Origin: a virus
Reading direction: 5' to 3' (one strand)
DNA: 27,379 bases
Virus record (IMG/VR): IMGVR_UViG_3300017917_004094
Coordinates: 1-27,379 of that record
In this document: positions 11,723 through 22,933 of the stretch, piece by piece
Numbering within the stretch: the stretch's first letter is position 1
Layout of the letters: every line of letters begins with the position of its first letter
Notes under the pieces: model-generated
What the model saw: the letters and a program-made list of their open reading frames with translations, nothing else
Databases searched by the model: none
What the model was told of the DNA's origin: nothing
Translations under genes and position numbers: made by a program

Positions 11723-11756
11723 AACCCCGGTAGTTTTCACTACCGGGGTTTTTTTA
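11723..11756. terminator. Bidirectional intrinsic terminator between convergent operons
   Basis: CCCCGGTAGT (11725-11734) and ACTACCGGGG (11739-11748) form a perfect 10-bp stem around TTTC, extended by AA/TT on the outside. Seven T follow on the plus strand, and the minus strand runs into TTATTTTATTTT. It fills the 34-base gap between the methyltransferase gene and the tail operon. The minus-strand stop codon (11754-11756) starts inside the T-run. Confidence 0.96.
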
Positions 11757-12407
11757 ATAGTTTGTCACATCAACAACAATAATACCATAATTTGGATCTG
11801 AGTAACTATCAGAATAGCCCGGAGTTCCACTATAAGTATAGTCTTCAAATGCTCCATCTGTTACTGATATAACATTAGAGCTAACTGTAATGTATCCTAA
11901 CGTACTACTATATGCAATAGTTCCACCTCCTAGATCATCGGCAGTCCAAGATAATCCATTACTTGTTTGTATAACAGCATAGCTTCTTCCACTCGTATAA
12001 GTACCAGGAGCAGAACCAGATATTCTTATAGGTTTTCCCCCTGTTTGGTATAAAAGAATACCTGAAGAATTATAGACCCGTAATCCTGCATTACCAGTTA
12101 CATTAACTCCCTGATCAAATACATAATAATTAAATGTAGTATTGTTAGTTCTAGACATTATAGTAAAAGTCCAAGTACTACCTGAAATAGATATAAAAAA
12201 GCTACAAACTGGATTACTATTATTACTAAGTGCAATCATTGGACTAATACAATTATTAACAGTAATTTGGGTTTTGTATACTGTTCCACCACCTACCGTT
12301 TGAGAGGTGTTACAGGTACCAGAGCCACTTTGTCGTAGTTGAAAATTTGGTCTTGAACCATCTATCTGGTAGACTCCATAATCATTTTTTATACGTAATC
12401 CAACCAT
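11754..12407 (-). CDS. Distal tail/fibre-associated protein with two GLR-type modules
   Basis: This 217-residue protein is probably a surface part of the tail tip or fibre; the exact role is unknown. It is rich in Ser, Thr, Gly and Asn with beta-sheet character and has no signal peptide. It contains two copies of a short module: residues 2-28 (VGLRIKNDYG...FQLRQSG) and 107-131 (AGLRVYNSSG...IRISG), each with GLR, a Tyr or Asp/Gly turn, and a closing Arg-x-x-G. The neighbouring 92-residue protein starts with the same module. From memory, small proteins starting with AGL-x-V-x-x-x-DG occur after the J gene in other siphoviruses. Three Cys (32, 53, 68) lie in the first half. It overlaps the upstream stop by TAATG and is the last gene of the tail operon before the terminator. 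Confidence 0.7.
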   Translation of the reverse strand: MVGLRIKNDYGVYQIDGSRPNFQLRQSGSGTCNTSQTVGGGTVYKTQITVNNCISPMIALSNNSNPVCSFFISISGSTWTFTIMSRTNNTTFNYYVFDQGVNVTGNAGLRVYNSSGILLYQTGGKPIRISGSAPGTYTSGRSYAVIQTSNGLSWTADDLGGGTIAYSSTLGYITVSSNVISVTDGAFEDYTYSGTPGYSDSYSDPNYGIIVVDVTNY

Positions 12408-12685
12408 TAGTATACTCCATAAATTAATTTATATGTTCCACTACCTCTACCACTCCACGACCAGCTTAGTAGCGTACCTGTAGTACTTATCGTGGGCATT
12501 TCTGCCCCAAAGCTAGCTACTGATACTATCATCCAAAACGGAGTTCCAGATGTTAAATCATTATCAGTTAAATTTCCATCTACAGTACCAGTAAGAGTTG
12601 TTACTCCTAGTACTCTACCAAGTTTGCTAGTTGTGTCAAATATAAGATTACCTGAAGCGTCATATTCTCTCAATCCTGCTGGCAT
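12407..12685 (-). CDS. Small tail-associated protein with one GLR-type module
   Basis: This 92-residue protein begins AGLREYDASGNLIFDTTSK followed by LGRVLG, a module seen twice more in the gene downstream. The rest is beta-rich (TPFWMIVSVASFGAEM; LLSWSWSGRGSGTYKLIYG) and looks like a small folded domain. It is probably a fibre tip or accessory component, judged only by place and composition. The ATG at 12685 lies 3 bases after the fibre stop and is inside a hairpin stem (12678-12704), so it is likely translated mainly by ribosomes finishing the fibre gene. GGTGA in the loop is the only ribosome-binding-site-like sequence. Confidence 0.7.
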   Translation of the reverse strand: MPAGLREYDASGNLIFDTTSKLGRVLGVTTLTGTVDGNLTDNDLTSGTPFWMIVSVASFGAEMPTISTTGTLLSWSWSGRGSGTYKLIYGVY

Positions 12686-12704
12686 ATGTCACCATATGCC
12701 TAGC
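12678..12704 (-). promoter_or_regulatory. Hairpin with GTGA tetraloop covering stop and start codons
   Basis: On the minus strand, GGCATATG and CATATGCC pair perfectly around the loop GTGA, a GNRA-type tetraloop. Three more pairs (GCT with AGC) extend it past one bulged base. The fibre stop TGA is in the loop and the start codon of the 92-residue protein is in the 3' arm, so the stem should hide that start until a ribosome translating the fibre opens it. Confidence 0.6.
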
Positions 12705-15700
12705 TGGACACGTAGTACGTTTGTACTATCATAAACTTCAATAATATTATCTTTGATCTCAACCCTAGCACCAGTAGTTGCTGTTCTAAGAGTACCTATT
12801 GTTGCTGTAATAGCTGATAGAGATGTAACATTCATTTTATTTGCGGCAACAGTACCAGTTACAAGTAGATTTCCATCTATAACTTCTGTTTGGTTATCCC
12901 ACGAAGTTCCGTTGTATATCCAAACAGACTGTCCTGTTGGGGCTCCTATTGTTCCTTTAAAGAACCAAGCTTGATCACCAGCTACAGCAGTACCTGGAGT
13001 AGTACCAACAAATACTCCTTTTGTCCAAGCTTCCGCTGCGTCTCCTGAAGTAGCTGGTAATCTACCGTCTGTTCCTGTAGCATAATCTATTGCATCAACA
13101 TCAATATGCCATCTACCAGCACCTCTAGCTCCATTGGTACCATTAGTACCATTAGTTCCGTTTGTGCCATTAGTTCCAGCCTTCGATTTACTAAAAGATT
13201 GAACTTTAGTTATAGTGAAGGAGGCTCCATTAATACGCTTACCAGTTATAGTGTAGGTTATAGAAGCCTGATCAGCAGTCATAGCACTATGATTATTTAC
13301 CGTAGCATATGTTCCGCTATCTGTTATACTACCAACCGTAATATTTGTTGGAGTACTAGATAGTGTCCATGAACTATTAGCCGTACCTACGCCATCATAG
13401 TTTAATTCTGTAGTACCTTCATATACTCGTATTGTGGTTCCACTACCATTATAGGTAGAAACTGTACCACCACTATCTGCAGGAAGAACATGTGCCTCAT
13501 TACTTAAAATAGCATCAAGAGAATTACTGCCATCATAGAGTTTAAGTATTGTTACTTCATCGAATTGACTTCCAGAAAGACAGCGTACTCTTAATGAAGT
13601 AGCTGATCCCCAAGCTGTATTGTCATGAGCCAGCGAGTATGTCGAAGAGGTTTGAGTTCCAGACAGGTTAGTCCAAGCAGTACCATTCCAATATTCCCAG
13701 TCATAAGTTGTAAGCCCCCCGAATAAGCTAGCAGAAAGTGTTATAGATAAGCTAACTGGAAGAGTTGCTCCAGCAAGATACTTAAATGTTTGATCTCCTG
13801 TTATAACAACATATTGTGCATTAGTACCATTTGTACCATCAGTACCTGCTTTTGACTTTGATATCTTATACACTTTATCTAGGGTAGCTGTACCATTAAC
13901 GGCTCTTAATGTAAAAGTTTCAGCATCAGTTGTCCAAGAAGCACCTGATAAGCTGTAAACCCCAGTAGTTTTATTTAATGTAAGAGTTAATCCATTTTGA
14001 ACTTTTGTCCATGTTGTGCCACCACCATCAGTTCCACCAACTATACTAAAGGTAGATGATGTTGTTACTTCTGTTGTACCCTTAAAAACCTTATAAGTAC
14101 CACCGGCATCAGTTAATGCATAACCTGTTCCACCAGAAGTAGCAGCAACTACATGTGATTCATTACTTAAATATGCATTATAAGAATTTTCCCCATCTGC
14201 AAGAATAGGAACAGTCTCAACATCTAATAGAGAAGTTGTTCCCCCAGAAAGATAGAGTTCTCCTTTAACATACTTAACACTACTTGGAATAGTATAAGTT
14301 CTTGATGTTTCATCGGCTGTACTTTGATCTTGAAGTGTAAAAGTTGTTCCGTTTGTACTAGTATATATTTTAAAACGTCCCGAATAAGCCACTGGAGCGC
14401 TAGTTCCGCTTATAGACCATCCATAAAAAGTTATAGTTGATGGTGTATACGTACCATCTGTATTTTGCTTAATACCTCCAACTGAAGGATCTAAGCGATA
14501 ATTAACTCCACCACCACCAGCTGCACCAGACTTAACTTTAGTAACCGTAAATCTAGCTTGACGAGTTACATATCCAGTTCTAGTAATACTAAAATCTACG
14601 TAAGCTTGATCCTGACTAATTGCAGTAACAGTATACTTTTTAGAGATTCCATCATCGGCAGTTGTTAGTGAACCAGTAACGCCTGTGGCTGAAGGAGTAA
14701 TTGTCCATAAGTTTGTAACATTAGTTTGACCAGAAAATACTTTAATTAGCGTTTCTGCTCCGGTAAAACCTACTGGAGTACCATCAGATAAGCAAGCTAT
14801 TGTATGCGCTTCATTTGATAAATCTACAGTAACTGCATCCGTTAATACTGGATTCCACTGTAGCGCATTAGCATCCCAACTATATACTTGATTAGAGTTG
14901 GTATCTAATACAGTTTCTCCATTATAAACACCAGTTATGGTTGTAATATCTATACTTCTTGTCCCAGTTAATCCTGTTACAGTTTGTACCCATTGAGTTC
15001 CATCCCATAAAAACATAATGGAGTCAGTAGTTCTAAACCATAAAGATCCAGCAGAAGGGCTAGTGGGAGCTGTTGCAGATTCTGTAATAGTACTTGGGCT
15101 ACCTTGTACCCACTCTGTTCCACTCCAACTATATATAAGATTATCAGTAGATAAAACAACTGTACGCCCAGCATAATTTCCCACAGTAGGTAAGGATGTA
15201 ACAAATTCTACTGGAGAATTATTCTCTGATTTAACTGTAAAGTATGGTTCAAGAGAATACGCCGAACCAACTCTAGTTATTTTACCTACAATAATATCAT
15301 TTATAATATCGGGATAATATCTGGGTATTTGCACATCCCCAGCAGTAGTGATAGGTCTATCTACTAATATTGCTTTATCATTAATATATTTGTTAAGTAT
15401 ACACCACTTATTTCCAACTTTTACTAATTGAGACTCTTTTCCCTGTAGCATTGAAAAACTAGATACACTACTTTTTATAACAGTATTATCTACCGTTACA
15501 TTTGCTGTAGCGGCTAGGGTAATCAATGCATCAATGGGTGGAGTATCTGTTATATCTTGATAATAAACTGCTTTTAAGCTTGTCGAGGAATCAGGAGATT
15601 GTGGAAGTTCTGTTATCTCTTTAAAGATCCTAAAACCAGTTGTAGTATCTGCTCCCGCATTAGTAGCAGTTGCAGTATTCCAAGTAACTGATGTAGTTGT

Positions 15701-16288
15701 AGAACTACCAGAATCACTATAAATCTGTCTAGCAATATATAATGTCTGTCCAATAGTAAAACTACCGGGAGTTAAGCTCCAACTATTTGGTGTAGTTGGA
15801 GCAGTAAACTGACCAGAGGACCATGTGTAAGTGCTAGTACCACTAGGAAATGTGGTAGGAGCTCCAGTTGATGACCATCTATAAACATCTAGTATAGCAG
15901 TTCTAGTAGTAGCTACCGCTGCATAAGTTAGTGGATATACTATATTAGCAGTAGGCCAAGTTACTGTACTTGTAGAAGTTGCCGCACTATCGGATATAAT
16001 AACTGAGATACCCCATAGAGTTTGTCCAGCACTAGCAGATCCAGGAGTTAAGCTCCATCCATTAGTTGTTGCCGGTAGTGTAAAGGTACCATCTGCCCAT
16101 GTATATGTACTACTTCCCTGTGGATAGGTTGTAGGTGCAAAAGTACCCCACTTATACAATTCTAAGTAACCCACCCTTTGCCCTATGTTACCACCCCCTC
16201 TATTTAGGGTTGCGGCTGGCAAGCAATAACATAGCCAAGCAGTTTCGCCATCTGCTACGTTATTTATGGTTATACCAGTATAGCTCAT
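12689..16288 (-). CDS. Large repetitive tail fibre protein
   Basis: This 1199-residue Ser/Thr/Gly-rich protein is probably a tail fibre or the distal extension of the tip. Residues 41-112 and 133-203 are tandem copies (YTW, SLTPGS, IGQTL and TSTVTW recur). A W-x-G-T-x-W hairpin motif recurs at about 388-394, 428-434, 868-873 and 1125-1131. Three Ig-like units start with LSNE(A/S)H at 490, 707 and 928, each followed by a short Lys/Ser linker. Collagen-like Gly-x-y runs occur at 815-823 and 1038-1052 (five GTN triplets), likely trimer-forming. The C-terminus (GNLLVTGTVAANKMNV... ARVEIKDN) resembles the end of lambda gpJ-type proteins (DUF1983-like). It starts at ATGA overlapping the gpJ stop, with GGAG upstream, so gpJ function may be split over two chains. 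Confidence 0.82.
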   Translation of the reverse strand: MSYTGITINNVADGETAWLCYCLPAATLNRGGGNIGQRVGYLELYKWGTFAPTTYPQGSSTYTWADGTFTLPATTNGWSLTPGSASAGQTLWGISVIISDSAATSTSTVTWPTANIVYPLTYAAVATTRTAILDVYRWSSTGAPTTFPSGTSTYTWSSGQFTAPTTPNSWSLTPGSFTIGQTLYIARQIYSDSGSSTTTSVTWNTATATNAGADTTTGFRIFKEITELPQSPDSSTSLKAVYYQDITDTPPIDALITLAATANVTVDNTVIKSSVSSFSMLQGKESQLVKVGNKWCILNKYINDKAILVDRPITTAGDVQIPRYYPDIINDIIVGKITRVGSAYSLEPYFTVKSENNSPVEFVTSLPTVGNYAGRTVVLSTDNLIYSWSGTEWVQGSPSTITESATAPTSPSAGSLWFRTTDSIMFLWDGTQWVQTVTGLTGTRSIDITTITGVYNGETVLDTNSNQVYSWDANALQWNPVLTDAVTVDLSNEAHTIACLSDGTPVGFTGAETLIKVFSGQTNVTNLWTITPSATGVTGSLTTADDGISKKYTVTAISQDQAYVDFSITRTGYVTRQARFTVTKVKSGAAGGGGVNYRLDPSVGGIKQNTDGTYTPSTITFYGWSISGTSAPVAYSGRFKIYTSTNGTTFTLQDQSTADETSRTYTIPSSVKYVKGELYLSGGTTSLLDVETVPILADGENSYNAYLSNESHVVAATSGGTGYALTDAGGTYKVFKGTTEVTTSSTFSIVGGTDGGGTTWTKVQNGLTLTLNKTTGVYSLSGASWTTDAETFTLRAVNGTATLDKVYKISKSKAGTDGTNGTNAQYVVITGDQTFKYLAGATLPVSLSITLSASLFGGLTTYDWEYWNGTAWTNLSGTQTSSTYSLAHDNTAWGSATSLRVRCLSGSQFDEVTILKLYDGSNSLDAILSNEAHVLPADSGGTVSTYNGSGTTIRVYEGTTELNYDGVGTANSSWTLSSTPTNITVGSITDSGTYATVNNHSAMTADQASITYTITGKRINGASFTITKVQSFSKSKAGTNGTNGTNGTNGTNGARGAGRWHIDVDAIDYATGTDGRLPATSGDAAEAWTKGVFVGTTPGTAVAGDQAWFFKGTIGAPTGQSVWIYNGTSWDNQTEVIDGNLLVTGTVAANKMNVTSLSAITATIGTLRTATTGARVEIKDNIIEVYDSTNVLRVQLGIW
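13133..13177 (-). repeat. Five tandem 9-bp repeats coding Gly-Thr-Asn
   Basis: Five 9-base units of the form GGN-ACN-AAY code a collagen-like run in the fibre gene. The copies differ mostly at third codon positions, so the repeat is kept at the protein level. Copy number could change by slippage without shifting the frame. Confidence 0.9.
13178..13507 (-). repeat. Ig-like repeat unit 3 of the fibre
   Basis: Codes residues 928-1037, from LSNEAHVLPADSGG to the SKSKA linker before the GTN run. It matches units 2 and 1 in its opening, in the (I/Y)-x-V-(F/Y)-x-G-(T/Q)-T strand, and in the final ITKV-type strand. Confidence 0.75.
13820..13846 (-). repeat. Three tandem 9-bp repeats coding Gly-Thr-Asp/Asn
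   Basis: A shorter collagen-like run (GTD-GTN-GTN, residues 815-823) follows Ig-like unit 2, as the five-copy run follows unit 3. The shared placement suggests unit plus linker was duplicated as a block. Confidence 0.85.
13844..14170 (-). repeat. Ig-like repeat unit 2 of the fibre
   Basis: Codes residues 707-815, from LSNESHVVAATSGG to KISKSKAG. The linker SKSKAGT is identical to that of unit 3. Confidence 0.75.
14519..14821 (-). repeat. Ig-like repeat unit 1 of the fibre
   Basis: Codes residues 490-590, from LSNEAHTIACLSDG to TVTKVKSGAAG. It is the most divergent of the three and ends in a poly-Gly linker rather than a GTN run. Confidence 0.7.
15680..15892 (-). repeat. Fibre N-terminal tandem unit, copy 2
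   Basis: Codes residues 133-203. It aligns with copy 1 (41-112) almost without gaps, sharing STYTW, NSWSLTPGS/NGWSLTPGS, GQTL and SVTW/TVTW, which shows an old tandem duplication of about 71 residues. Confidence 0.85.
15953..16168 (-). repeat. Fibre N-terminal tandem unit, copy 1
   Basis: Codes residues 41-112, beginning LELYKWGTFAPTTYPQGSS; paired with the copy at 15680-15892. DNA identity is clearly lower than protein similarity, so the duplication is not recent. Confidence 0.85.
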
Positions 16289-19200
16289 AGTTTTACTCCA
16301 TTATTGATAACTGCCTCCACCCCTGAAGGAGATGTAAATTTATAATAGTTAGAAATAGATATAGTATTGTTATTTATAATAATAGGCTTACTAAAAGTTC
16401 CACCCTTAACAAGTCCAGTTTGTACAACTTGTCCAGGAATAGACTTATTGTTTAGTACAGAGATTTTTGTAAATTTAGGTTTTGACATTGGTCCTGCAAT
16501 GCTTTTAACCTGTATACTGAACTCATAATCTCCGCTAAGTATGTTAGTAACTGTATAAGTTGTAGAGTCTGGAGAAATTTCTGCCGTTACAGGTTGACCC
16601 GTAGAATCAATATATTTTATTATAATTCTATCTAAGTTTTGATATCGTACCTGTAGTACTCCTGAACCTTCAGTAGGCATTGTCCAACTTAAAACTATAT
16701 CCGCTGTTTGTACACCTGCAGCATCTTTCTTTAAACCTTCAGCACCTAGTGTTTTATACATAACAGCAGCGGTAAAATTAGTAACAGAAGGTATATCAAC
16801 CTGATAAGGAACAACTTGAGGAGCATCCGCAATATAGTCCTCGCCTATTAAATCAAATTTACTGTTATAGTGCTCAGCAGCTGAGATACTATAACTACCG
16901 GGAGACTCTTCTGATATGCCTAATATCTTATATTCTTTTATTCCCGCTGTAGTTTCTACGCCCTCTGATGTATAAGCAGTAATTGCCCATATAAACTCTG
17001 ATAAAGGAGCTACAGAAAATGCAGAGCCTACAGTAAGTGTAGTAATATTTGTACCAGCAGCCGTTGTTATAGTTCTAGTCTCTATATGTGTATCAGGACT
17101 ATACTGCGTATAAACTGGATTACCACTTGTGTCAACTAGTACTGCTGATTCTCGCTCAGCAGGTATAGAAGGTTCAACATCTGGGAGTATATCTCCTTGA
17201 ACAAATGTTTGAGGAGTTCCTCCAACTGATATAGTTGCAGTTTTTTGAGCTAAATATGTAGCTGATCCTGTAACTAAACAGTGTAATTTATATGTATATC
17301 CACTTTGTAAAGTAATAGGAGAATCAATGGTTACTTGAGTAGTTGTAGCAGATACTATACGTCCAGAGAATCTTACTGAGTTTCTATCTGCATCTTGAAT
17401 GCCAATAATACTCCCTGGCCTAAGATAGCCAGCATTCTCTCCTGTTCTAAAAGATACAACTTCTTTTTGCATCTTAGATGTAAGTAACTTCCACTTTGCA
17501 TACCGAAGTGCCTGGCTTCTGCTAGTAGCCCCAAATGCAACTACTTCCTCAGTAAAAATACGATTTTTTGCAACGATATCTTCAATATCATCATATATCT
17601 CTACTGCTTGTTCATAGAAATTATTGCGATCATTATACGTCACGGCTATTTGATTGGGTCTAGTTTTAGTACCAGTACCTTCATAGGAAAATGTACCTTG
17701 AATATTTCCTTTTGTAAATACATATACAGGTTCTCCTGGTCTATCTCCTTCTACAGTAAACTTACCTTCTACCCAATACGGAAGTGCTAACATAGTTGTA
17801 CAGAAATCTTTTATAACTTTATACGCTTCTGTAGATTGAGTTAAATATACCCCACAGGTAAATCTAGGTTCAAGTCCCCCAGATCCATTTGGTACAAGTT
17901 CATCGCAGTATCTAGCTAGTGAGTATAGCGAATAATCATTTATTTCTTGGCTAGAAATCCAATTACCCAATCCCCATCTTTTGTTTAAAAGAATCTCTCT
18001 TAAGTTCCAAACTGGATTATCGCAGTATGTTCTTTTAAATGTTCCATTCCATAGACCACTATAAGAAGCTACTCCTGTGGTGGATTCTTGTCTGGTTGTA
18101 TAGTTCGATGGAACCTCTACTTGTACCCCATAGCAATGATAGCGTCTTTCAGGAAGCTGTCCACTAAATTCATTACTATCCACCATTATTGCAGCGTATC
18201 CTGAATGTGGATACGTTAATTTATCGGTAATGAAAGCTTGAACGTTTTTTAGTGTACTTCCATTAGTGTACGAAAGATATTCTTTATCATACTGTGTATA
18301 GTTATCTGGAGTAACTCGTCTAACTACAACCCTGAAACTTGTAAATGGTTTAAATTCTTCGATACTAAAACGGAAGGAATAATCAAAAGAAACTTCTCTT
18401 TGAGCGTCTACATCTCCAGATTTATTATTTATTACTGAGACTGGAACCTGATTATGCGTAAGGTATAAAAGAGAGGAGGCTAAATTTACTTCCTCTGTAG
18501 TAGGACCAAACATAAGTTTAGATACGTAAGGAGTTACACCATTGTCTTCTGTAGTTCTATATTCAAAGAATATTTGAAAGGTTGCAGCAGCTCTATTAGT
18601 AGTACTATTTTTACTATCTGTTAAATTTAATCCACTGGGAAAATTTATAGTAACCACTAACTCATCTATTTCTGAAGCAACTCCGCCCAGTTGAGATGAG
18701 GTAACTACAACTTCTCCGCCGCTAGTAGCTCCATCAGCGAGTTTTCCACCTATACCGCCCCCTATAAAGTTTCCTAGTTTATTTGCATTAAAATAGTCTA
18801 TATACTGCTTAAGCTCTGCGCCAGAGTTGTATCCATAGCTTGCCTGATTAAAAGAAGGAAAATTTATTACTGGAGTTTGGTTTAATGCACCTCCACGAAA
18901 AGCTACCCTAACATCCCTAAAGTTTGTAGAACTAGAAACATTTTCATAGTTTAATTCATTATTTGCACCAACTAATATAATTGGACTTGATGGAATAATT
19001 GCAGCGGCAGTCTGCAAGTTTGCTCCAATCGGCGACGTGGTTCGCATAGTTGCCAATGAGTAGTGATCCCAAGTAACTGTTCCAGAAGTTGCGGTAAAAG
19101 TACAAATTTTATCAAGTACAGCTTGAGTAGAGCTAATTATCTGTATAATTTCTCCCTCAAATACTTCTCCCGCTGTACTTCTAACTCTAATCTTTTGATA

Positions 19201-19608
19201 TAGTCCACCATCCCCTGCGGTATTACTTGCTAACATACTATTAGTAAAAAAACTACTAGAAGTTGTAACATTAGGAGAGCCTACTGTTACAGAAGCTAAG
19301 TTAGTAGATCCACCTCCACCTATAACTAGTATAGGTCTTACTTCACCACTAATATACGTATGTGTAAAGTTTATCGAAGATGTACTAGGCATGGATAAAC
19401 TACCAAATGCCGAACGAGAATCATACTGTGTAATTGATACTTGCTTTAATTCACTTTTATTAACAATTGGAGTTTTGTTTAAATAAATAGAGTTAAGCCC
19501 ATTAACTAAAGTTATTGGGCCCTCACTAATTAAGTCATAAACAACTGCATTATTTGTTATACCTGCAGAAGTGCCTATAGATCCAGTGCTAGAATAGTAA
19601 GTTGCCAT
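16285..19608 (-). CDS. Tip attachment protein J (host specificity protein)
   Basis: This 1107-residue protein matches lambda gpJ, the central tail tip protein that binds the host receptor. The N-terminus has the hallmark VVYDLISEGPITLVNGLNSI (22-41). CDNPVWNLREILLNKRWGLG (529-548) is the strongly conserved gpJ core motif. Further on come the D-R-P-G-E-P and R-A-L-R-Y-A-K-W type segments of the phage-tail domain. A fibronectin III-like domain lies at roughly 945-1055 (IVLSWTMP; YEFSIQVKSIAG). The C-terminus, after SIPGQVV, is short, and the coiled trimeric end usual for gpJ is found instead at the end of the next protein. AAAGGA precedes the ATG, 16 bases after the gpI stop. The receptor cannot be inferred. 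Confidence 0.93.
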   Translation of the reverse strand: MATYYSSTGSIGTSAGITNNAVVYDLISEGPITLVNGLNSIYLNKTPIVNKSELKQVSITQYDSRSAFGSLSMPSTSSINFTHTYISGEVRPILVIGGGGSTNLASVTVGSPNVTTSSSFFTNSMLASNTAGDGGLYQKIRVRSTAGEVFEGEIIQIISSTQAVLDKICTFTATSGTVTWDHYSLATMRTTSPIGANLQTAAAIIPSSPIILVGANNELNYENVSSSTNFRDVRVAFRGGALNQTPVINFPSFNQASYGYNSGAELKQYIDYFNANKLGNFIGGGIGGKLADGATSGGEVVVTSSQLGGVASEIDELVVTINFPSGLNLTDSKNSTTNRAAATFQIFFEYRTTEDNGVTPYVSKLMFGPTTEEVNLASSLLYLTHNQVPVSVINNKSGDVDAQREVSFDYSFRFSIEEFKPFTSFRVVVRRVTPDNYTQYDKEYLSYTNGSTLKNVQAFITDKLTYPHSGYAAIMVDSNEFSGQLPERRYHCYGVQVEVPSNYTTRQESTTGVASYSGLWNGTFKRTYCDNPVWNLREILLNKRWGLGNWISSQEINDYSLYSLARYCDELVPNGSGGLEPRFTCGVYLTQSTEAYKVIKDFCTTMLALPYWVEGKFTVEGDRPGEPVYVFTKGNIQGTFSYEGTGTKTRPNQIAVTYNDRNNFYEQAVEIYDDIEDIVAKNRIFTEEVVAFGATSRSQALRYAKWKLLTSKMQKEVVSFRTGENAGYLRPGSIIGIQDADRNSVRFSGRIVSATTTQVTIDSPITLQSGYTYKLHCLVTGSATYLAQKTATISVGGTPQTFVQGDILPDVEPSIPAERESAVLVDTSGNPVYTQYSPDTHIETRTITTAAGTNITTLTVGSAFSVAPLSEFIWAITAYTSEGVETTAGIKEYKILGISEESPGSYSISAAEHYNSKFDLIGEDYIADAPQVVPYQVDIPSVTNFTAAVMYKTLGAEGLKKDAAGVQTADIVLSWTMPTEGSGVLQVRYQNLDRIIIKYIDSTGQPVTAEISPDSTTYTVTNILSGDYEFSIQVKSIAGPMSKPKFTKISVLNNKSIPGQVVQTGLVKGGTFSKPIIINNNTISISNYYKFTSPSGVEAVINNGVKL

Positions 19609-20434: not shown

Positions 20435-21137
20435 ACCTATAAATTCCTTTTATAAATTCTCCCCAGAATGGGTATATATTTTCTCTACAAGAAAGCCTAT
20501 TATGGGCATGATGAAATATTAAATCATTTTCTAAATATACACCTAGATGATTACAAACTTTATGATTAACAGCAAAAGTAAGTAAGTCTCCATATTCTGG
20601 TATATCTACTTTCTTAAAGGGTAATTTACTAAGTTCATCTTCTATATATGTATATCCTTTAAGCCACCAATCATCTACCCACTCTTCATGTCTTGGTTCA
20701 AGTAATACATCATGTCGAAGGTACCAGTCTCTTGCTGCCTCGAAACAATCTTTCTTTCCGAAAACATATTCTCTACCTAATAAACCCTTATAATTATCAG
20801 GTTGTACAATTGTATATTCCAGAGAATCTCTATTAAATATTATATATGGGATTTTTATAGAATTACAAGCCACAATATCATATTCGCTAGGTATACAATT
20901 GTTTAAATGAGCATGAAAAATATACAATATATCTCCAGTTAGAGAGTATTTTGTAAATTCCCTATGATCAAGTTCAAAGTTATCTTCTTTACTAGAAGAA
21001 ACATTTTTTATTGGTATAAAAGTTAACTTACCTTTTTTAAGATAAATGATCCCGCATGGTTCTGCGGGATCATTATATGTCTTTAACCAACTTTTAATAT
21101 TATCTAGAATACCTTCTAGCGGCGGGGAATCCACCAT
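20397..21137 (-). CDS. Tail tip assembly protein, gpK-like (JAMM and NlpC/P60 peptidases)
   Basis: This 246-residue two-domain protein matches lambda gpK. The N-terminal JAMM/MPN metallopeptidase domain shows E26 (AEPCG), H75-x-H77 (FHAH), S84 and D87 (PSEYD), the zinc-binding set. The C-terminal NlpC/P60 domain shows Cys131 (KKDCFEAARDWY), His197 (NHLGVYL) and a downstream His in DLIFHHAH, a likely Cys-His-His site for cutting cell-wall peptides. In lambda-like phages gpK acts in tip assembly; the NlpC/P60 domain may also help penetrate peptidoglycan. AAAGGAG stands about 8 bases before the ATG, so the start inside the gpL gene is well supported despite the 38-base overlap. A 12-bp perfect hairpin covers codons around E26 (21045-21074). 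Confidence 0.93.
   Translation of the reverse strand: MVDSPPLEGILDNIKSWLKTYNDPAEPCGIIYLKKGKLTFIPIKNVSSSKEDNFELDHREFTKYSLTGDILYIFHAHLNNCIPSEYDIVACNSIKIPYIIFNRDSLEYTIVQPDNYKGLLGREYVFGKKDCFEAARDWYLRHDVLLEPRHEEWVDDWWLKGYTYIEDELSKLPFKKVDIPEYGDLLTFAVNHKVCNHLGVYLENDLIFHHAHNRLSCRENIYPFWGEFIKGIYRYEKYNIRRVYWR
21045..21074 (-). repeat. 12-bp perfect hairpin inside the gpK gene
   Basis: AATGATCCCGCA and TGCGGGATCATT pair perfectly around a 6-base loop, about 64 bases after the gpK start. No T-run follows on either strand, so it is not a terminator. The encoded peptide (NDPAEPCGII) includes the JAMM glutamate. Confidence 0.85.
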
Positions 21138-22550: not shown

Positions 22551-22933
22551 TATGTACCTCTAAACACTTCATTAAACTCTGTACTTAAGGAGTATAAATA
22601 GCCATTCATAAAAGATTTTGAGTACTTTGATACATTTACCTTTACTAGTTCAGAGGATCCGTCACTTACAATATAAAAGTTAGGTACAACTGCTGCACCA
22701 AGAAGAGCAAAGTAGGATTCTATCAAATTTATCTCTTCAATGTCACGACCACTAAAAGATGCAGAAATTACTCTTCTTCTAGGACCAATGGGGATGGATA
22801 GTGAATATCCATCCCCGAACTTGGTAACTCTTTTTGGCATAGTATTCTGTATACTAACACCATTATCTAGATGAATTATCCTATCTCTAGTTAAGCTTAG
22901 TGTGCCGCTAGGAATAGTGAACCTTACAATCAT
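22550..22933 (-). CDS. Minor tail protein M
   Basis: This 127-residue protein matches the lambda gpM family (Phage_min_tail), which links the tape measure initiator complex to the tail tip hub. Typical features are RVTKFGDGYSLSIPIGPRRR (35-54), a first strand VISASFSG, the helix EEINLIESYFALLG (66-79), and the closing YLYSLSTEFNEVFRG. Length is near lambda gpM (109). It follows the tape measure gene by TAATG, exactly as in the H-M order of lambda. The codons for FGDGYSLSIP form a perfect 11-bp hairpin (22790-22816). Confidence 0.88.
   Translation of the reverse strand: MIVRFTIPSGTLSLTRDRIIHLDNGVSIQNTMPKRVTKFGDGYSLSIPIGPRRRVISASFSGRDIEEINLIESYFALLGAAVVPNFYIVSDGSSELVKVNVSKYSKSFMNGYLYSLSTEFNEVFRGT
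22790..22816 (-). repeat. 11-bp perfect hairpin inside the gpM gene
   Basis: GGGGATGGATA and TATCCATCCCC pair perfectly around a 5-base loop. It is much richer in G and C than the surrounding gene and no T-run follows, so it is not a terminator. Confidence 0.85.

Follow-up and report, generated by a model that had tools for sequence, protein, structure and literature searches.

A predicted hairpin over the start codon of a small phage tail gene, probably a by-product of codon complementarity at a tight gene junction

The start codon of a 92-aa tail gene is buried in a stable predicted RNA hairpin, which also holds the stop codon of the tail fibre gene just upstream. We consider it fairly probable that this is an ordinary tight tail junction, operating by termination-reinitiation, and that the hairpin is an unselected by-product of codon complementarity between the end of one protein and the beginning of the other. 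The hairpin itself is probably lineage-specific and not selected. The window, i.e., the whole stretch of DNA analysed, corresponds to a 27,379-base virus record in which the tail genes are all located on the minus strand. The features of the junction and its surroundings are the following:

16285-19608, minus strand: J-like protein (phrog_31, central tail fiber J)
12689..16288, minus strand: fibre gene, 1199 aa, with the C-terminus RVQLGIW-stop
12673..12709, minus strand: entire predicted hairpin, including the GCU/AGC and GUCC/GGAU helices (fold)
12681..12700, minus strand: perfect 8-bp hairpin GGCATATG-GTGA-CATATGCC over the fibre stop and the start of the 92-aa gene
12689..12693, minus strand: GGTGA, Shine-Dalgarno-like element 5' of the ATG (duplex -6.9 kcal/mol)
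12689..12691, minus strand: TGA stop of the fibre gene, within the loop and sharing the frame of the following ATG (TGA CAT ATG)
12683..12685, minus strand: start codon (ATG) of the 92-aa gene, within the 3' arm
12407..12685, minus strand: 92-aa gene (phrog_2427, function unannotated), beta-rich domain predicted
11754..12407, minus strand: 217-aa gene (phrog_4062), sharing a related N-terminal part with the 92-aa gene

The arms of the 8-bp stem (12700-12693 with 12688-12681) enclose a loop at 12692-12689, whose sequence GTGA fits the GNRA type. Past a bulged A (12701), GCT (12704-12702) pairs with AGC (12680-12678), and the predicted fold adds a second outer helix, GUCC/GGAU, between 12709-12706 and 12676-12673. 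The junction RNA of the fibre and 92-aa genes reads GUCCAGCUAGGCAUAUGGUGACAUAUGCCAGCAGGAUUG, in which GGCAUAUG and CAUAUGCC pair perfectly on both sides of the GUGA loop. A first-pass annotation had placed the hairpin at 12678-12704, with an 8-bp stem and three further pairs past a bulge, a GTGA loop of the GNRA type, the fibre TGA in this loop and the ATG in the 3' arm; its sequence, coordinates and geometry are all correct.

The 91-nt fold has an energy of -31.6 kcal/mol (z -4.66), and none of 200 shuffles was equally low. The minus strand of the window has 12 perfect hairpins of at least 8 bp (loops of 3-8 nt), where ten shuffles average 4.2, and six of the 12 are longer than the junction hairpin. 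By fold energy the junction hairpin exceeds chance; by the count of perfect hairpins it is unexceptional. Perfect hairpins are about three times as numerous on this strand as in shuffles; some of 10-12 bp are present within the tail genes at 21045-21074, 22790-22816 and 15776-15802.

The junction was compared with those of related phages. Fibre ends related to that of the window were found in 55 viral loci, and 80 of 235 loci with J relatives were kept, while relatives of the small protein came from 17 viral loci, one genome locus (L154) and 22 named phage stretches. The junction-finding HMM, iterated three times, covers the small and the 217-aa proteins alike, and 167 open frames of this kind were collected. 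Junctions at least 90% identical over 54 nt were merged and HMM matches starting after profile position 6 were skipped. The resulting 105 non-redundant junctions comprise 51 located 5' of the small gene (window included) and 54 between the small gene and the next one. Ten rows (one each from L091, L098, L090, L108, L122, L146, L155, L156, L157 and L158) were dropped when the start, or an upstream stop within reach, was not found; in several of these the small gene does not adjoin the fibre gene, which restricts the counts to adjacent pairs. The junctions are labelled by homology, with a few doubtful labels (e.g., L115 and L124), and the homologous rows are related, not independent. The aligned homologs of the small protein are 30-42% identical to the 92-aa protein.

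Stop and start codons are separated by -8 to +4 nt at 45 of the 51 small-gene junctions and at 51 of the 54 next junctions. The commonest spacing is -1 (TAATG, TGATG, etc.), with 24 and 31 instances, respectively. In the window, the gap between the fibre stop and the ATG is +3 (spacer CAT), and the start of the 217-aa gene overlaps the end of the 92-aa gene as TAATG. Such overlaps and very short gaps fit termination-reinitiation, which PMC6728339 describes at overlapping gene pairs, with local structure near the start proposed to block de novo starts. The window shares with these pairs a stop and a start only a few nucleotides apart, and in its homologs a putative Shine-Dalgarno element lies inside the upstream gene; it differs in its +3 gap and in having GGTGA in a loop rather than GGAG or GGGG.

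At the small-gene junction, the terminal glycine codon of the preceding gene ends in a purine in 19/27 cases (background 34.7%, p 1.7e-4), and at the next junction in 35/37 (background 48.7%, p 2e-9), the background being the other glycines of the same upstream genes and the relatedness of the sequences making these p-values overstate independence. Glycine codons able to pair (GGY) are found in eight of 22 rows, where 14.2 are expected (p 0.012). On the simplest reading, the purine-ending glycine would reflect selection for a Shine-Dalgarno sequence (GGGG, GGAG), which would oppose the hairpin. The window glycine is GGC, and its GGTGA element, located mostly in the loop, has a duplex energy of -6.9 kcal/mol against a median of -6.8 over the 51 junctions. 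Likewise, at 12395-12425 of the window (minus strand) and in its homologs, the small protein has a conserved G-V-[YF]-stop terminus that encodes a Shine-Dalgarno-like stretch for the next gene.

The codons of the two protein ends account for most of the pairing. The fibre end RV-x-x-G-[IV]-W is encoded as GUN, then C or A, and further on GGN RUN, and the small-protein start M-P-x-G-L as AUG CCN ... GGN YUN. With C or U as N, GG-N-R-U can pair with A-U-G-C-C, and GUN-C matches GGN-Y when the third bases are suitable. Most of the helix thus follows from the protein motifs by themselves, and the third base of a single glycine codon determines the inner stem. Codon shuffles that kept the protein unchanged placed a perfect 8-bp stem over the ATG in 28 of 5000 cases when the spacer was random and in about 2.2% of 600 when it was the real one, and 21 of 1500 codon shuffles were as costly to open as the window junction. 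The chance of the window stem under this synonymous null is about 0.6-2.2%, which by our own arithmetic becomes about 11-36% for at least one such stem across 20 gene starts, making the hairpin notable but not compelling.

From these observations, we infer the following course of events. Ribosomes completing one gene would probably go on to translate the next, first the small gene and then the 217-aa gene (termination-reinitiation). For most relatives, the next gene would draw its Shine-Dalgarno element from the final glycine codon of the gene before it, GGG or GGA in G-[VI]-[WFY]-stop. In the window phage, this codon is GGC and the spacer is CAT; given the near-complementarity of the codons for RV-x-x-G-[IV]-W and M-P-x-G-L, this combination would by chance produce a strong hairpin. 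As long as it is present, the hairpin would block de novo starts and leave the small gene reliant on ribosomes arriving via the fibre. Conserved protein ends at gene junctions can therefore be RNA-complementary and produce striking hairpins from coding constraint alone, and junction hairpins need a synonymous-codon control before they are labelled regulatory.

The hairpin had previously been proposed to keep the small protein in step with the fibre and perhaps to set the ratio of the two. A conserved, selected switch or ratio-setter is not supported by the comparison, which finds phages that retain both proteins and have lost the stem, the outcome named in the same annotation as refuting. A perfect stem of at least 6 bp over the AUG occurs at two of the 51 junctions, those of the window (8 bp) and L145 (9 bp); three more (L101, L085 and L116) join the stem-bearing junctions when G-U pairs are allowed. 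RNAalifold returned zero pairs and no consensus structure for the 22 rows carrying both protein motifs. In the register shared by these rows, 75% of the cells are paired and none shows a compensatory change. The pair between the central glycine codon and the AUG (Gly3-AUG) is broken in 14 of the 22 rows of alignment A3, or in 14 of 21 without L162, a misaligned row that ends before its fibre end. Zero compensation is in itself weak evidence, since one arm is fixed by the ATG, CCN and GGN codons; the broken glycine-codon pair would be the stronger argument. Homologous junctions are on average slightly more open than synonymous codon shuffles: the mean opening-cost z without the window is -0.37 at the small-gene junctions (n=50, t -2.66) and -0.40 at the next junctions (n=53, t -3.19).

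In L145 (2479-2515), a GC-rich distant relative, the same junction carries a 9-bp perfect hairpin, CTGGGGCAT-CTGGTA-ATGCCCCAG, unrelated to that of the window and also followed by outer pairs past a bulge. A repeated palindrome was ruled out, as the hairpin has a single match in the window, the site itself, and the exact 20-mer no further match in other viral contigs. A conserved RNA element was likewise ruled out by the missing RNAalifold structure and an Rfam search of the hairpin that gave no match.

The most serious alternative is a selected switch restricted to this lineage, to which we give perhaps one third of the weight of the by-product reading. In such a switch, the stem would hide the AUG until a ribosome translating the last fibre codons occupies the 5' arm, by unfolding with or without reinitiation, so that the small gene would be made only in step with the fibre. 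The degree of occlusion supports it. Freeing the AUG of the 92-aa gene costs 10.5 kcal/mol, compared with 0.1-3.5 for the other 19 valid starts of the window, and opening the 24 nt around it costs 19.1 kcal/mol (3.5-10.6 for the others). It is the most occluded of the 20 valid gene starts checked, two plus-strand positions (3931 and 4856) being excluded as they are not start codons. None of the other ATG triplets in the tail region (202 in all) is as hard to free, and among the 51 homologous junctions the AUG cost is highest here. This cost is constant with flanks of 30-150 nt and drops to 2.1 kcal/mol when the 5' arm is covered, as by a ribosome on the final fibre codons. The melting of the stem by a ribosome at the fibre stop, suggested earlier, is in this respect borne out by calculation. 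The RNA past a ribosome parked on the stop folds weakly (-4.6 to -6.6 kcal/mol), so reinitiation would be unblocked. As the start is occluded and becomes free once the 5' arm is covered, fibre-dependent translation of the 92-aa gene is physically plausible. The similar stem in L145 points in the same direction, as do the low chance of the window stem under the synonymous null and the number of stems of at least 8 bp: two against 0.19 expected in the 58 rows labelled as small-gene junctions, window included, and one against 0.17 when the window is excluded (50 rows).

Such mechanisms are documented in PMC12548453 and PMC6728339. The former reviews RNA-unfolding and reinitiation models of coupling, with phage f1 VII-IX, MS2 coat-lysis and E. 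coli rpmI-rplT as examples. As in RNA-unfolding coupling, the window start lies in a stable predicted structure that upstream translation would open; the known cases come with mutational evidence, whereas the window stem is predicted and non-conserved. Conservation or compensation, as a sign that selection keeps the structure, was not found among the homologs at 30-42% identity, and the homologous junctions tend toward open structure. Moreover, PMC12548453 states that, when genes lie close together, the terminating ribosome has to leave before another can start, and close spacing would let reinitiation couple the genes without any hairpin. Coupling of the small gene to the fibre is consequently retained in part: the AUG is buried and, by calculation, freed once the 5' arm is covered, but the stem occurs at two of 51 junctions and covariation is absent. 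Because a close relative of the exact window junction was not found among the loci searched, a lineage-specific switch keeps a minor share of the probability. The junction would at best be a fresh instance of textbook translational coupling and, if functional, another case in which coupling ties the amount of a tail part to that of the fibre.

More speculatively, tail operons of this family may hold a protein-encoded hairpin in which, owing to the codon-level complementarity of the conserved RVxxGIW-stop and MPxGL motifs, synonymous changes around the glycine codon toggle the start between a Shine-Dalgarno-driven (GGR) and a hairpin-locked (GGY) state. On this idea, which we regard as rather unlikely, the locked state would have arisen independently in the window and in L145.

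Coupling to the fibre is not needed as a rule, given the phages in which the small gene lies away from it. In L155-L158 (Drexlerviridae), the small gene and its 217-aa-type neighbour are on the strand opposite the tail-fibre/J gene and have their own purine-rich Shine-Dalgarno-like stretches; there, both adjoin recombination genes. The small gene of L108 is on the other strand from the fibre, and in L088, L090 and L098 about 80-200 nt of extra sequence separates it from the fibre end.

Structure at a start codon generally lowers expression, and the small-gene start is the most occluded in the window. The hairpin might then mainly damp the output of the small gene rather than tie it to the fibre, which seems improbable. 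By its usual footprint, a terminating ribosome would cover the stem, past which the RNA folds only weakly. PMC7518266 links structure after stop codons to reduced reinitiation; its ribosome termination structure resembles the window hairpin in being mRNA structure near a stop codon, but was measured outside the footprint of the stop-codon ribosome, whereas the window hairpin lies inside.

Readthrough of the stop, adding a small domain to the fibre end in the shared frame (TGA CAT ATG, spacing +3), is very improbable: only five of the 51 homologous junctions are in frame with the upstream gene, the hairpin encloses the stop instead of standing 3' of it, and other window genes end normally in TGA. 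A terminator or RNA-processing site, suggested by a stable stem at a gene boundary, is just as improbable, with no T tract 3' of the stem, no place in the window's list of terminator-like stems, no Rfam match, and a terminator-like hairpin already present on both strands at 11723-11750.

The 92-aa and 217-aa proteins share their N-terminal region (hhalign probability 94%), so that 11754-12685 (minus strand) consists of two tandem related genes; the 217-aa type consensus repeats a similar motif internally. The small protein is modelled as beta-rich, with a mean pLDDT of 84. It had no match in Pfam or NCBIfam, and its model none in the PDB at E 0.001 with Foldseek. Weak PDB matches (E 0.13 and above) were led by Sf6 tailspike chains and included a pyocin fibre, and nine viral predictions, mostly unnamed, matched at E 0.001. 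The model and these matches would fit a tail-tip part.

Among named phages, tblastn with the 92-aa protein gave no match at E 0.01 and, at E 10, only a 17-residue match in six records, through which the Drexlerviridae arrangement came to light. A related-locus search with the same protein confirmed none of eight candidates, a junction DNA pattern search returned zero matches, and the open literature, searched with limited terms, showed no paper on the fibre/92-aa junction among the matches listed. L002, which among the J-protein contigs is nearest (85% over the query part), stops short of the fibre end. L003, L004 and L006 extend downstream, where an HMM search gave no small-gene match, although they are about 70% identical in the J query region; judging by these three, the fibre-end module looks mosaic. 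Past the 217-aa gene, the hairpin at 11723-11750 has a 12-bp stem with T-rich stretches on either side and, lying between convergent gene blocks, is likely a bidirectional terminator.
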